This document shows positions 12,836-20,206 of a stretch of DNA of 34,375 bases, one piece after another. The notes beneath the pieces are model-generated. The model was given only the letters and a program-made list of their open reading frames with translations, was not told the origin of the DNA and made no database searches. The DNA is taken from contig JARGOP010000007.1 of assembly GCA_029233965.1 (NCBI GenBank), positions 1 through 34,375 of the forward strand, written 5' to 3'. The position numbers and the translations under genes are program-made. Every line of letters starts with the position of its first letter. Positions within the stretch are counted from its first letter, which is position 1. The DNA is from Verrucomicrobiales bacterium. Lineage in GTDB: Bacteria > Verrucomicrobiota > Verrucomicrobiia > Verrucomicrobiales > DEV007.

Positions 12836-12914
12836 ACTGCTTGCAAAGAGGGTGTTCGTGAAAAAGCTGCGTCAGAAATTCGTGTGGGCAGGCGCGTCGG
12901 AGAGAGCGAAGCCA

Positions 12915-13050
12915 GCTTCATGACCGAAGGCGGAACACCGCCACGGGGATTTCCGGCCAACTCACCCGGCGTTTCGAGCGGAGCGGGCATTTCCTCTCCA
13001 TCCGAAAAACCCTTCTTGTTTGCGAACAGAGTTTTAGCAGGCAGTCCAAG
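12915..13050 (+). repeat. Dispersed 136-bp repeat, copy A
   Basis: Reverse-complementing this segment and aligning it without gaps to 19992-20127 gives 128 identical positions out of 136 by hand count. It sits in a gap between convergent genes, as does copy B. Seven of the eight differences would change the amino acid in the only long shared frame, so it is conserved as DNA or RNA and not as protein. Confidence 0.92.
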
Positions 13051-15983: not shown

Positions 15984-17348
15984 ATGAATTTCGCCTGTCC
16001 GACCTGCAACATCACCCTGCAAGCCGAGCCTGATCTCGCCGGAAAAACTGTAAAGTGCCCCGGATGCTCAAGTCGAATTCAAATCCCTGAGGATTTCGGC
16101 ACTCCGCCTCCCACCGGTGCGGAACATGAGCACTCGGCCGAGGACATGGCAGACGAGCACTATGACCGGATTCCCGAGTTGGACGTTTCGTCACCAGCTC
16201 CCAAGACTCACCCCTCGTTCGTTAATGTCTGGATCGCCGGGGGAATCGGAATCGCAGCGACCTTCCTCTGGTTTCTCGTCATGTATCTTCTCCCGGTTCG
16301 TGAAACCGTTGATTCTCCTCACAATGCCGGCAGCTATTTCCGCGAACTCTTCACTCAGCGCGGGTGGCCCCAGTACGTGACCACCCTGCTCATGTTCTGG
16401 TGTCTCGCGATTCTTGTCCTGAAATGGCTCAACATTCAAAAACAACGTCGCGCCATGCTCATTCAGGCCCTGCCGACCGATATCAGCGATGAGATCAATC
16501 CAGGCAACCTCAAAGAGTTTCACGATCATATCATCAACTTTCCCGGCCCGCTGCGTAACACCTACATCGTGAACCGGATCCGGAAGGCGCTCGAATTCTT
16601 CTATGTGCGCCAGAACAATCCGGACGTCGCTCAAATGATCACGGCGCAGTCGGAGATCGATGCCGCCAAGGTGAGCAGCAGTTATTCCATGGTGAAGGTT
16701 TTCCTCTGGGCGATCCCCATCATGGGATTCATTGGAACTGTCCTCGGTATTGGTGCAGCGATCGGTGGTTTCGGGGCTGTCTTCGGGGCCGGCGAGGGTG
16801 GCGACATGAGCCAGATCAAAGAGCCTCTCCTCAACGTTCTCGGTTCCATGGGGGTGGCGTTCGACACGACGCTTCTTGCGCTTGTCTTCAGTATTCTCCT
16901 CAGCTTCCCCGCCAGTGCGCTGCAGAATCAGGAGGATGACCTCGTCACCGACGTCGACGAATACTGTATCGACCACCTCCTCAAGCGCCTTAACGACGGA
17001 GGTGCCGCTTCCAACTTCGGATCCGACGCCGGCCTCCTCAAAGCAGTGGGTGATGCCATGGCCGCAAACCAGCAGGACCTCATGTCCCGCTTCGAATCGG
17101 TGCAGAAAGGAATGTCACAAAGCCTCGGCAACCAAACGAAGCAATACGAGAAGGTCGCCGAAGCGGTCGAGAAGCAGATCGCAGCGATCGACGAACGGGC
17201 TGAAAAATATGGCAGCAAACTTGATCGCTCCCTCGACGCACAGGTAGCTTCGTTGTCCGAAGGAATCCAGAATCTCAATGCCGTTCTGAAAGAGCTCAAC
17301 GGCAAACAGGTTGTCGTGCAGAAAAAAGGCTGGTTCAGCCGCGGGTGA
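15984..17348 (+). CDS. Zinc-ribbon MotA/TolQ/ExbB-family proton channel protein (454 aa)
   Basis: The channel subunit of an ion-driven motor. Residues 1-36 are a zinc ribbon with CPTC (C5, C8) and CPGC (C25, C28), which would lie in the cytoplasm. Transmembrane helices are at about 82-103, 130-150, 238-262 and 285-310. The third has the TolQ/ExbB signature IMGFIGTVLGIGAAIGGF and the fourth has VAFDTTLLALVFS, whose Thr residues line the ion path in this family. A long coiled-coil tail covers about 355-440 (VEKQIAAIDERAEK). It heads a three-gene operon with two ExbD/MotB-like genes (27 bp and 19 bp gaps). The tail recalls long-tailed MotA relatives such as ZorA, but the partners are not ZorB. 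The function driven by this motor is unknown. Confidence 0.9.
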   Translation: MNFACPTCNITLQAEPDLAGKTVKCPGCSSRIQIPEDFGTPPPTGAEHEHSAEDMADEHYDRIPELDVSSPAPKTHPSFVNVWIAGGIGIAATFLWFLVMYLLPVRETVDSPHNAGSYFRELFTQRGWPQYVTTLLMFWCLAILVLKWLNIQKQRRAMLIQALPTDISDEINPGNLKEFHDHIINFPGPLRNTYIVNRIRKALEFFYVRQNNPDVAQMITAQSEIDAAKVSSSYSMVKVFLWAIPIMGFIGTVLGIGAAIGGFGAVFGAGEGGDMSQIKEPLLNVLGSMGVAFDTTLLALVFSILLSFPASALQNQEDDLVTDVDEYCIDHLLKRLNDGGAASNFGSDAGLLKAVGDAMAANQQDLMSRFESVQKGMSQSLGNQTKQYEKVAEAVEKQIAAIDERAEKYGSKLDRSLDAQVASLSEGIQNLNAVLKELNGKQVVVQKKGWFSRG

Positions 17349-17375
17349 CGCTTGTTCTAGAGAGAGTTATTTCTG

Positions 17376-18209
17376 ATGGGTAGAAGATCACAGGACGACG
17401 GAGGCTCAGTCAGCCTCTTTCCGTTTCTCAGCATCCTGATTTGTATCATCGGATGCCTGACCCTTATCATTGTGGTCATCAACCTGATCGCGATGAATAA
17501 AGGGGAGGGCCGCACCTCCGAAGAGGTGGAGCGGGCTCGCGAGTATGTCCTCCTTGAGCAGGAAAAAATTGAGAAACAGGAGCAACAGGACAGGCTGCGC
17601 CAGCTCATCGAAAACCTGATCCAGCAGAACAAAGACACTCTCGCGACCCGGGATCGCCTCGTGATCCTGAAAGAAATGTTCGACAATCAGGAGGAGATTG
17701 AGAAAAGCCGCGACGAACTGATCGCCAAGTTCAATCTCCTTCAGCAAACAAACAAGCAACTCGTTCAGGATGAGGCTCTTCTTCTTGCCGAAATCAAAGT
17801 GAAAGAGGAAGAAATCACAAAGAGAAAGCTTCCCCCTGAAGCGGCTCAGCTTCGCGTGCGCCCCAGCGGTTCGAGCACCTCGAACCGTCCTTTCTTCGTC
17901 GAAATTTCCGACCGTGGCGTCTACCTCCACAAAAGCCTTTCGGAAGAAGCGGAAGTGATTCCGATCGCGACCCTGAATCAAAATGAAGAGTTTATCGAAT
18001 TACTCAAAACGATAGGTTCCAGCAGTCAGAACACGCTGATTTTTCTGGTTCGCGGCAATCCCGCAGCCGTCGGAACGCTTCAGAAGGCCTCTCAACTGGT
18101 TTCCGCGTACAACCGGGCGAACGGCACTGAAATCATTCCCGGGCGGCTTCCGCTGCCGGGTGAGGGCAAAGTGGACCTTCAAATGTTCGCCCAGTTCCTG
18201 GAGCCTTAA
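17376..18209 (+). CDS. ExbD/MotB-like stator partner lacking the conserved Asp (277 aa)
   Basis: Single-pass inner-membrane protein with a long periplasmic coiled coil. A short basic/acidic N terminus (MGRRSQDDGG) leads into one transmembrane helix at about 14-39. The sequence SLFPFLSILICIIG aligns with ExbD PFIDVML, and the proton-carrying Asp is replaced by Ser19. Two Asp residues (D7, D8) lie just outside the membrane. Residues 46-165 are a strongly charged heptad-like coiled coil. Residues 168-277 form a compact domain with FFVEISDRGVYLHK, TLIFLVRGNPAA and a final LPGEGKVDLQMFAQF segment. This is not an OmpA-type peptidoglycan-binding domain. It is co-transcribed between the channel gene and the second partner. 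Confidence 0.85.
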   Translation: MGRRSQDDGGSVSLFPFLSILICIIGCLTLIIVVINLIAMNKGEGRTSEEVERAREYVLLEQEKIEKQEQQDRLRQLIENLIQQNKDTLATRDRLVILKEMFDNQEEIEKSRDELIAKFNLLQQTNKQLVQDEALLLAEIKVKEEEITKRKLPPEAAQLRVRPSGSSTSNRPFFVEISDRGVYLHKSLSEEAEVIPIATLNQNEEFIELLKTIGSSSQNTLIFLVRGNPAAVGTLQKASQLVSAYNRANGTEIIPGRLPLPGEGKVDLQMFAQFLEP

Positions 18210-18228
18210 TCCTTTTTCACACAACCAC

Positions 18229-19899
18229 ATGGCACGCAGAAGACGAGGAGACGAAGAGCGCAGCATGGACGCACTCATGGATGCCCTGACCAACGTGGTC
18301 GGCATTCTTCTTCTCATTCTCATCGTGAGTAGTCTCGGCATCAGTGCTGCCGTGAAAAAGGTCGTCGAAAATCTTCCCGAAGTGAGTCAGGAGGAATTGG
18401 AGGCCATGCGCATCAGCCGCGACAAAACACTGAAAAACCTTCAGGAACTGCAGCAGACTCACAATACCACGATCGACAATCTCCCGACCGAAGAGGAAGC
18501 CAAAGCACTCGTCGCTGAACTCGAGGACTTTGAGCAGGAAAATTCAGACCTCGCCGAAAAGACCTCCGATATCGAGGAGTGGATGGCCAAGGTCGAAGAG
18601 GAAAAAACGAAGCAGGAGGAATTCACGGAGAAAGTCTCTGTCGCCGACACGAGGAATCGCGAACTCGCGGCCATCCTTGCACAAACGCCCGAAGTGGAGG
18701 TCAAAGAAGCCAAAGATGTCGCGATGCCGAACCCGCGCGTTGCCGACAAAGAGTCCAGTGCATTTTATCTGATTTGTAAGTTCGACCGCCTTTACTTCAT
18801 TGGAGACCCCTACGAACACGCCTTCAGAATCCGGGACGTCATCGATCAGAATTTCGCGGACCTCGTTTACACGGGCAATGCGATTGGCTCCTACACCTAC
18901 CAGATCAAGGACACGAGCCGGAACGACAGCGGTGCGCTTGAACCGCACCTTGAGAAATATCGTCTCAGCAGACGTGAGAGAGAAGCACTCTCGGCGTGGG
19001 ATCAGCTGAAACCGGTCTGGAAAAACCGCGAAGGAGTGGAGTCGAAGGAGGCAAGTCTCCTTACCCGGATCTTCGGAGCCGACGAGGAGGCTGAGCTGGC
19101 GGTCTCAAAGTTCCGGTTTGATATGGCGAAGATCACGAATTTTTTCGGCGACGGGAAATTCGGTCCTGCTGACTTCAAGTATCATGTTCTTCCCGGGGGC
19201 GGAGACCGCATCAAGCTGGCCCTCGAACCCAAGCCTGAAGGTGGCTGGACGGTGGATCAGTTTCTGGCCGCAGGATCACAGTTTGAGCAGTATTGCAAAC
19301 AGGCCGCCACGTCGCGCCGGGTTCTTTTTTACTACTACGTCGCCCCCGACAGCTTTGACACCTATCTCCAGGCTCGAGCCAAGTCTGAGGAGTTCCGCGT
19401 TCCCGCCGGCTGGACGGTTTGGGATCAGGATAAAGTCGAGCCGCGAGCCGTCCCGACGCGCGAGACGACTCGCTACAATCTCGATGTTCTTCCTGACGAT
19501 GCCTACATGAAGGTCGCCAACGCGGTCGGTCCGAACATGGTCGCCGAGTTGAACAAAGAGGCGGCGGAGTTTACCGCGAGAATCGAGGCTTCCGTTCCCG
19601 AAGAGGTTAAGGACCCTGCCGCCCGAACGAAATTCATCACCGATCTCACCAAAGAGCGCAATGATTGGAACGCCTCACGTTTCCAGAGCTACGTCCTGAG
19701 CATCTTCCAAACCGCACTTGCCGCCGAAGAAGCCGGCGGTGAGGTCGTTGCATCGCTTGAAATTCATCCCCCGGAGATTCCCGGGATTAGAATTTTCCAG
19801 CCATCCCGTCCACCGAGCAAGCCGACACCTCCGCCGGATCCGACAAAGAAGCCGGAACCGCCGAAGCCCCCAACCGGGAACACGCTCATTCTGGACTGA
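18229..19899 (+). CDS. ExbD/MotB-like stator partner retaining an Asp, large periplasmic domain (556 aa)
   Basis: Second single-pass partner of the channel protein. After MARRRRGDEERS, the membrane helix (about 15-38) begins MDALMDALTNVVGILL. D18 and T21 align with D32 and the following Thr of MotB (DFMTAMMAFF), so this subunit could carry the proton. A coiled coil covers about 43-145. A large periplasmic region follows, containing FYLICKFDRLYF, a YYYVAPDSFDTYLQA segment resembling the C-terminal domain of the first partner, and other unassigned sequence. The last 30 residues are Pro/Lys-rich (PTPPPDPTKKPEPPKPP), possibly reaching the peptidoglycan. I use the ATG at 18229; the frame is open from 18160 but that would overlap the previous gene. 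No strong ribosome binding site is visible. Confidence 0.83.
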   Translation: MARRRRGDEERSMDALMDALTNVVGILLLILIVSSLGISAAVKKVVENLPEVSQEELEAMRISRDKTLKNLQELQQTHNTTIDNLPTEEEAKALVAELEDFEQENSDLAEKTSDIEEWMAKVEEEKTKQEEFTEKVSVADTRNRELAAILAQTPEVEVKEAKDVAMPNPRVADKESSAFYLICKFDRLYFIGDPYEHAFRIRDVIDQNFADLVYTGNAIGSYTYQIKDTSRNDSGALEPHLEKYRLSRREREALSAWDQLKPVWKNREGVESKEASLLTRIFGADEEAELAVSKFRFDMAKITNFFGDGKFGPADFKYHVLPGGGDRIKLALEPKPEGGWTVDQFLAAGSQFEQYCKQAATSRRVLFYYYVAPDSFDTYLQARAKSEEFRVPAGWTVWDQDKVEPRAVPTRETTRYNLDVLPDDAYMKVANAVGPNMVAELNKEAAEFTARIEASVPEEVKDPAARTKFITDLTKERNDWNASRFQSYVLSIFQTALAAEEAGGEVVASLEIHPPEIPGIRIFQPSRPPSKPTPPPDPTKKPEPPKPPTGNTLILD

Positions 19900-20206
19900 T
19901 TTTGCGTTTCACGAAGAGGCGTGCAATCCTCAGTTTCGTTTTTCGCCGCGAGCAGCCCTGCGGCGCGAGGGCACATCAGTTGCACGCTTATCTTAGACGG
20001 CCTGCCAACACTCTGTTCGCAAACAAGAAGGGTTTTTCGGGTGGAGAGGAAATGCTCGCTCCGCTCGAAACGCCGGGTGAGTTGGCCGGAAATCCCCGTG
20101 GCGGTGTTCCGTCTTCGGTCACGAAGCCGGGGCGAGCCGATCCACCCGGTGCCGCATTTTTCGCTCAGCCCCGCTGCGACATGGACCTGAAATAAGGCAC
20201 CTCGCT
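19900..20206. other. 307-bp convergent intergenic region holding repeat copy B
   Basis: Between the stator operon and the plsC-like gene I see no gene. The region holds the 136-bp repeat copy B (19992-20127). A plus-strand frame of 97 codons spans it, but it reads out of the previous operon into the repeat and lacks a start signal. Confidence 0.7.
19992..20127 (-). repeat. Dispersed 136-bp repeat, copy B (inverted relative to copy A)
   Basis: Matches the reverse complement of 12915-13050 at 128 of 136 positions with no gap. Beyond both ends the similarity drops sharply. It lies about 90 bp past the stop of the second stator partner and about 80 bp from the stop of the convergent acyltransferase gene. 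Confidence 0.92.

Follow-up and report, generated by a model that had tools for sequence, protein, structure and literature searches.

Motors of the MotA/TolQ/ExbB superfamily that combine one channel with two different partner subunits have precedents. In the gliding motor AglRQS of Myxococcus xanthus, as described in the available parts of two papers (PMC3169522, PMC9389320), one channel is accompanied by two non-identical ExbD/TolR partners, AglQ and AglS, which are 162 and 194 amino acids (aa) long, match Pfam ExbD and are both described with a conserved Asp; a passage of the 2022 review (PMC9389320) states that it is not known whether they join the channel as hetero- or homodimers. Heterologous tolR pairs, again one channel with two different partners, were described in Planctomycetes-Verrucomicrobia-Chlamydiae (PVC) bacteria in 2025 (PMC12204202, one section), and tandem ExbB-ExbD-ExbD(-ExbD) operons, where one channel gene precedes two or three different ExbDs, were present in the genome studied here and in its relatives. 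For PomAB, excerpts of two papers report that T158, T185 and T186 coordinate Na+ (PMC10374538, PMC6677748), with Ala at positions 158 and 185 in the two H+ stators compared (PMC10374538). The locus described here lies in a 34,375-nucleotide stretch of a Verrucomicrobiales genome (assembly GCA_029233965.1, contig JARGOP010000007.1, positions 1 to 34,375; hereafter the window) and comprises three open reading frames (ORFs) in the same direction, encoding a channel (15984-17348, +), partner 1 (P1; 17376-18209, +) and partner 2 (P2; 18229-19899, +). We consider it probable that the trio specifies a single ion-driven motor of the MotA/ExbB superfamily in the inner membrane, with one channel and two different axle helices.

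As far as the cited text goes, the trio resembles AglRQS in being a gene cluster that combines a single MotA/TolQ/ExbB channel with two different partners, and resembles the PVC tolR pairs, which come from the same phylum group, in the same combination of a channel with two different partners. An initial annotation of this DNA had assumed that known motors always use two identical partners, a premise contradicted by AglRQS, the PVC pairs and the tandem exbD operons; its description of a three-gene operon, with a zinc-ribbon MotA/ExbB channel and two different single-pass partners, was confirmed. Unlike AglQ and AglS, the partners of the window are 277 and 556 aa long and stay below the cut-off of every Pfam and NCBIfam family, and P1 can be without Asp. 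The one section of the PVC account at hand makes no mention of a missing Asp, a zinc-ribbon channel or core exchange, and the literature searched, which did not extend to subscription literature, yielded no account of membrane-core exchange or of a partner lacking Asp. The absence of Asp from P1 appears unusual, since the membrane Asp was present in all 33 ExbDs read from 14 ordinary tandem operons of these genomes (22 from a hydrophobicity scan; the other 11, the PF02472 matches listed for those operons, from a pattern that requires Asp). The ExbB channels of ordinary operons had a non-acidic residue at the site of Asp294 of the window channel (14/14). Compared with PomAB and MotAB, the window trio has two different partners and the extra channel Asp294, and no OmpA-type domain was found; PomAB T158, T185 and T186 correspond to channel T252, T295 and T296 by motif (GxxxT and TT), the match being made by eye.

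Cassettes of the window's kind, termed type A, were scored at three residues, P1-19, P2-14 and channel-295. In the window, P1 has Ser19 at the ExbD Asp position (17430..17432, +, within FPFLS), P2 has Asp14 (18268..18270, +) one turn ahead of Asp18 (18280..18282, +) as well as Thr21, and the channel has Asp294-Thr295-Thr296 (16863..16871, +). Ser19, Asp18 and Thr21 had been read correctly in the initial annotation, with numbering that fits a P2 start at ATG 18229, where homologues begin (the ORF tool had called GTG 18160). Among 115 complete type A trios, window included, 75 carried Ser, Asp and Thr at the three sites, 40 carried Asp, Val and Ala, and none was mixed; not among these were L098, whose P2 lacks its N-terminus, and L217, to which a P2 from outside its locus had been wrongly assigned, and also outside the counts stood L396 without a channel, L399 without P2 and L415 from a genome without a match. 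The 113 trios gave 84 distinct rows, which 64 new ones brought to 116, thinned to 104 for one tree. Over 117 type A rows, window included, P1 residue 19 was Ser in 76 and Asp in 41, so that Asp does not occupy this site in most P1 homologues of this type. Asp18 of P2 and Asp294 and Thr296 of the channel showed no variation across type A rows (Asp18 in 85/85 rows and then in 116/116 rows with P2). Of the two residues whose conservation was at issue, then, Asp18 proved invariant and Ser19 was not universal, giving way to Asp in the 40 trios above. Twenty-five columns discriminated the types (21 Ser-type versus 30 Asp-type rows), all in or near membrane segments and confined to residues 125-135, 239, 258 and 295 of the channel, 12-27 of P1 and 7-37 of P2; Asp-type channels had Ala295 and no residue other than His at 126 and 258. 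Habitat was not supported as the basis of core type, as the RE- series of metagenome-assembled genomes contains both (L186 Ser, L200 Asp). In the Roseibacillus group all 12 checked rows were Ser-type (10 of them titled Roseibacillus), and one genome of the window's genus (G008) holds one Ser-type and one Asp-type cassette (L117 and L100). Many of the genomes are metagenome assemblies; G040 (Asp-type) and G047 (Ser-type) are near-complete, in about 30 contigs, and close by ftsY.

The segments that differ between types were delimited by segment identities and by core and tail trees, with the discriminating columns in addition for the partners, as channel residues 76-312 (16209..16919, +), P1 residues 1-45 (17376..17510, +) and P2 residues 1-47 (18229..18369, +). 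All trees were built by a quick method; those of single proteins used 60 hand-chosen rows, those of the soluble and membrane parts 56. A tree of the soluble parts of the three proteins required 12 switches between Ser- and Asp-type, 11 of them forced by starred (well-supported) branches, and a single Asp-type clade was rejected on it (approximately unbiased (AU) test, p 4.2e-38). The membrane parts of the same 56 rows gave one switch, with all Asp-types in one clade (support 99), and still one after removal of the 25 discriminating columns (support 92); the Ser-type row L092 was sister of the Asp clade in the core tree. Switches in single-protein trees numbered two for the channel, eight for the P1 tail and 13 for the P2 tail. 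In all 11 independent pairs, P1-19 agreed with both P2-14 and channel-295 (p 0.001). In three Ser-Asp sister pairs with P2 domains 91-93% identical, the N-termini of P1 and P2 were 49-58% and 49-53% identical, and the channel helix segments 22-68%. Mosaic blocks in DNA windows matched the protein pattern, most clearly in three of four Ser-Asp pairs and less clearly in L173/L207; same-type pairs displayed no dips in the partner N-termini, although their identity also fell across the channel linker (about residues 31-90). As a chromosomal reference we used ftsY, which lay in the flank of only six searched loci and was hence searched for genome-wide (29 genomes used, G391 omitted). Core type was not clustered on the ftsY tree, with 11 changes (seven forced) against a shuffled mean of 9.8, and ftsY distances correlated with those of the tails (Mantel r 0.76, p 0.0005) far more than with those of the cores (r 0.22, p 0.002). 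The soluble parts track ftsY while the cores barely do. From these sequence comparisons together we conclude that channel, P1 and P2 have had their membrane segments replaced jointly, as a matched set, and that these segments must match. Such joint replacement argues that both partners work with one channel, and provides strong indirect evidence that the channel and both partners form one complex. Evolution here serves as a test of partner pairing, in that the membrane parts of channel and both partners change together and were in no case found mixed.

Under our preferred reading, the channel would probably form a pentamer around one P1 and one P2 helix, a 5:1:1 arrangement taken from known relatives. 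P2 would supply the invariant ion-binding Asp18, with P1 as its unequal mate: in the lineage of the window, the P1 Asp would have been replaced by Ser and a second acid would sit on P2 (Asp14), and in the other lineage P1 would keep Asp19 alongside Val14 of P2. Ions would pass between the axle acid or acids and a channel Thr ring (T252, T295 or A295, and T296, next to Asp294) and so move ring and axle relative to one another, presumably by rotation, and the two TolR/ExbD-like periplasmic domains, held off by long helices, would hand force to a target in the envelope. Stoichiometry, rotation, ion and target are all inferred. T252 and T296, the conserved Thr residues of the third and fourth transmembrane helices, were unchanged in 85/85 rows and are putative pore-lining residues. 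The initial proposal of a single protonatable subunit stands in so far as P1 of the window is without Asp, and is too simple because P2 also carries Asp14 and the channel carries the invariant Asp294. In an arrangement that we regard as unlikely, one channel would serve two alternative 5:2 motors, with either a P1 or a P2 homodimer, and the exchange would reflect the fit of each partner to the channel rather than of the partners to one another. The question of homo- versus heterodimers that the available AglRQS text leaves open (PMC9389320) gives this some standing, and matched exchange would also constrain each partner against the channel; yet P1-19 and P2-14 switch jointly in every independent pair, and a Ser-type P1 homodimer would be left without an axle acid, though channel Asp294 could substitute.

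The channel (454 aa) matched Pfam MotA_ExbB PF01618 at E 4.2e-7 and 30.2 bits, above the curated cut-off of 22.9, and has four hydrophobic segments (residues 77-106, 127-153, 233-271 and 282-315) followed by a long, helical cytoplasmic tail; a phmmer search of it against PDB sequences returned just three chance-level matches. Its N-terminal zinc ribbon (Cys5/8/25/28; 15996..16067, +) is conserved, with Cys5, Cys8 and Cys28 kept in 33/34 rows (one row being a split ORF) and Cys25 in 34/34. AlphaFold2 models of P1 and P2 (mean predicted local distance difference test, pLDDT, 81.9 and 84.2) each showed a membrane helix leading through long helices to a globular domain. P1 has a single hydrophobic segment, with Ser19 in place of the membrane Asp of ExbD/TolR, and P2 is likewise single-pass. 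Neither partner matched the PDB at E 0.001 in plain Foldseek; a second-look structural alignment of the Foldseek candidates (VIA-align) ranked TolR 5by4, the periplasmic domain of the E. coli protein, first for both P1 (Z 7.0, 3.0 A over 88 residues) and P2 (Z 6.9, 4.0 A over 95 residues), with ExbD 8vgd at Z 5.4 for P1. Because TolR ranks first for both models, the partners look like the ExbD/TolR type, with the domain at about residues 162-261 of P1 and a large insertion in P2, which is suggestive, not proof. Pfam PF02472 (ExbD/TolR) gave no match to P1 or P2 of the window at E up to 1, was absent from the 25 families listed for 18 relatives of each, and matched one relative of P2, from the type C cassettes described below, at E 0.019, below cut-off. 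Weak family matches of the partners covered chiefly helical parts, including PADLOC AbiC to P1 (E 5.5e-4). Comparison of type A profiles linked residues 1-150 of P1 and P2 (98.6%), a stretch that is in part coiled coil. The initial view of two non-identical partners is supported, both resembling the ExbD/TolR fold, and there is indirect evidence that the three membrane parts act as a matched unit.

Other two-partner cassettes in the phylum, designated types B and C, were found with P1 or P2 profiles; L289 and L290 were left out, as were weaker matches such as G222:C2, G307:C69 and G196:C134. Profile comparison related type A P1 to type B P1 over their length (99.4%) and the type A P2 domain to that of type C (96.4%). 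Type B cassettes, which may correspond to the PVC heterologous tolR pairs, have a P1 with FQD, its Asp present in 24/24 tree rows, and P2 Asp in 23/24. The exception, L287 (G166), has Gly-Pro at the P2 site and retains the P1 Asp, a reverse asymmetry seen in this single case. In type C, the P1 site was Ala in three, Ser in two, Cys in six and Asn in seven of 18 genomes and acidic in none, and the P2 Asp was present in 18/18 (G152 included because its first 80 residues are those of G138). A joint tree of 106 channel rows required at least four changes of P1 acid status, so the P1 acid appears to have been lost or regained repeatedly; P2 acid loss was seen in a single row. Repeated loss, in the Ser-type cassettes of the window's kind and throughout the sampled type C genomes, is what would be expected if P1 had no motor role, serving inside or next to the channel as a plug, a clamp or an adaptor for the target, with the working axle coming from P2 only. 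We nevertheless judge this improbable: because Asp stands at the ExbD site in 40 type A trios and all type B rows, that site is evidently an axle site in relatives, and P1 has a TolR-like domain as P2 has. A fourth kind of two-partner pair, with MTPFLD and VTSFCD motifs and Asp in both partners, lies behind a related channel at L307-L309. In some type C loci about 2 kb of other genes separate the channel from P1, and L223-L239 adjoin a FabA/FabZ-like dehydratase and a hexapeptide transferase resembling LpxA, suggesting a link to outer-membrane lipid. Pfam identified no TPR or vWA domain in three genes neighbouring the type B locus L110, one of which looked vWA-like by eye.

We tentatively extend the reading of one motor with two unequal axle helices to a stronger claim, which we would sooner doubt than accept: that there are two incompatible matched cores, one asymmetric (Ser19, Asp14 and Asp18, Thr295) and one two-sided (Asp19, Asp18, Ala295, His126/His258), between which bacteria would have switched 11 times or more, each time exchanging the membrane segments of all three proteins at once and keeping the soluble domains, in what would be repeated natural Na+/H+ re-engineering. 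That the two cores are Na+ and H+ versions is their simplest reading and our hypothesis. The two core types offer natural pairs for locating ion-choice residues and for finding whether a single acid-bearing axle chain can power a motor of this kind. Several observations weigh against the motor reading or its extension. The fold matches reach only Z of about 7, and unrelated folds or common arrangements can reach Z below 8. The P2 Asp was lost at the type B locus L287, and a type C subclade of seven genomes has Asn in P1 with no acid four residues before the P2 Asp; these seven genomes rule out a general rule of two acids per axle, or of any fixed number of acids. TT at 295/296 also occurs in 12 of 14 ordinary ExbBs of these genomes and in types B and C; Thr295 by itself is therefore no proof of Na+ use. 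Trees that include the channel core have fewer switches (four for the concatenation without motif stretches, two for the channel alone), the core segments are short, and the quick trees rest on 56 hand-picked rows from the clade where switching occurs. Lastly, the correlation of ftsY with the cores is weak yet not nil (p 0.002).

A converse history, in which the cores are not functional types and two old cassette lineages instead exchanged their soluble tails, through gene conversion or replacement of domains, seems to us improbable. Carriage of both cassette types by G008 would fit it, and the codons for identical amino acids speak on both sides: core DNA was nearer the same-core relative than the tail sister in L385 (0.71/0.56) and L366 (0.64/0.56), and nearer the tail sister in L207 (0.62 vs 0.58) and L401 (0.59 vs 0.51), with near ties in L410 and L093, so that among six cases, all at high saturation, the result favoured core exchange clearly in just two. 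Against tail exchange stands the Mantel comparison, in which the tails track ftsY and the cores barely do.

All three genes were found in order at 73 of 80 named loci, the remaining seven being cut by a contig end; the co-occurrence in order that the initial annotation had named as a check therefore holds at these loci, and loss of a partner gene was not seen. P1 was present in 64/68 genomes of one related family (45/47 of good quality), and the trio is thus not a chance arrangement. Of 56 relatives, 38 have P1 and 37 have P2; a channel was recognised in 39, in two of them from its zinc ribbon only. In a phylum-wide sample P1 was matched in 30/288 genomes, 12 of these at E below 1e-39. Judged by this distribution of sequences, the trio is a chromosomal cassette conserved in Verrucomicrobiales, and it looks like one with a chromosomal function, present as a rule in one strong copy per genome, not like a mobile system. 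Identity with a Zorya-like phage defence motor was rejected as highly implausible: weak PADLOC ZorA matches to the channel (best E 1.2e-6, 25.7 bits) and its long cytoplasmic tail recall ZorA, but NCBIfam ZorA scored 18 bits against a cut-off of 500, no ZorB model was among the partner matches at E up to 1, presence in nearly all genomes of one family is unlike accessory defence, and Pfam identified no defence gene, TPR or vWA among 10 window neighbours.

The window neighbours identified by Pfam were a hydrolase, ThuA, a response regulator, an acyltransferase, DUF4350, DUF4129 and PdxJ, and no candidate for the target of the force was found among the neighbours of the trio in the window or in relatives. 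In relatives, ribBA-ribH-nusB lay upstream of the trio in 10 loci and ftsY directly upstream in nine; in Verrucomicrobiaceae-type loci (L174-L177 and others) the trio shares direction with the preceding ribBA-ribH-nusB or ftsY. At L185 (8122-9269) P2 runs across two reading frames, probably through a frameshift or an error of assembly. The C-terminal end of P2 in the window (19891-19896) is a nearly invariant Leu-Asp behind a Pro-rich tail, possibly a docking signal. A 139-bp inverted repeat, 94% complementary, was present at 12912-13050 and 19992-20130, enclosing a 6.9-kb stretch that holds the trio together with the hydrolase and ThuA genes, and may be a dispersed repeat or mark the end of an inversion or a mobile segment.

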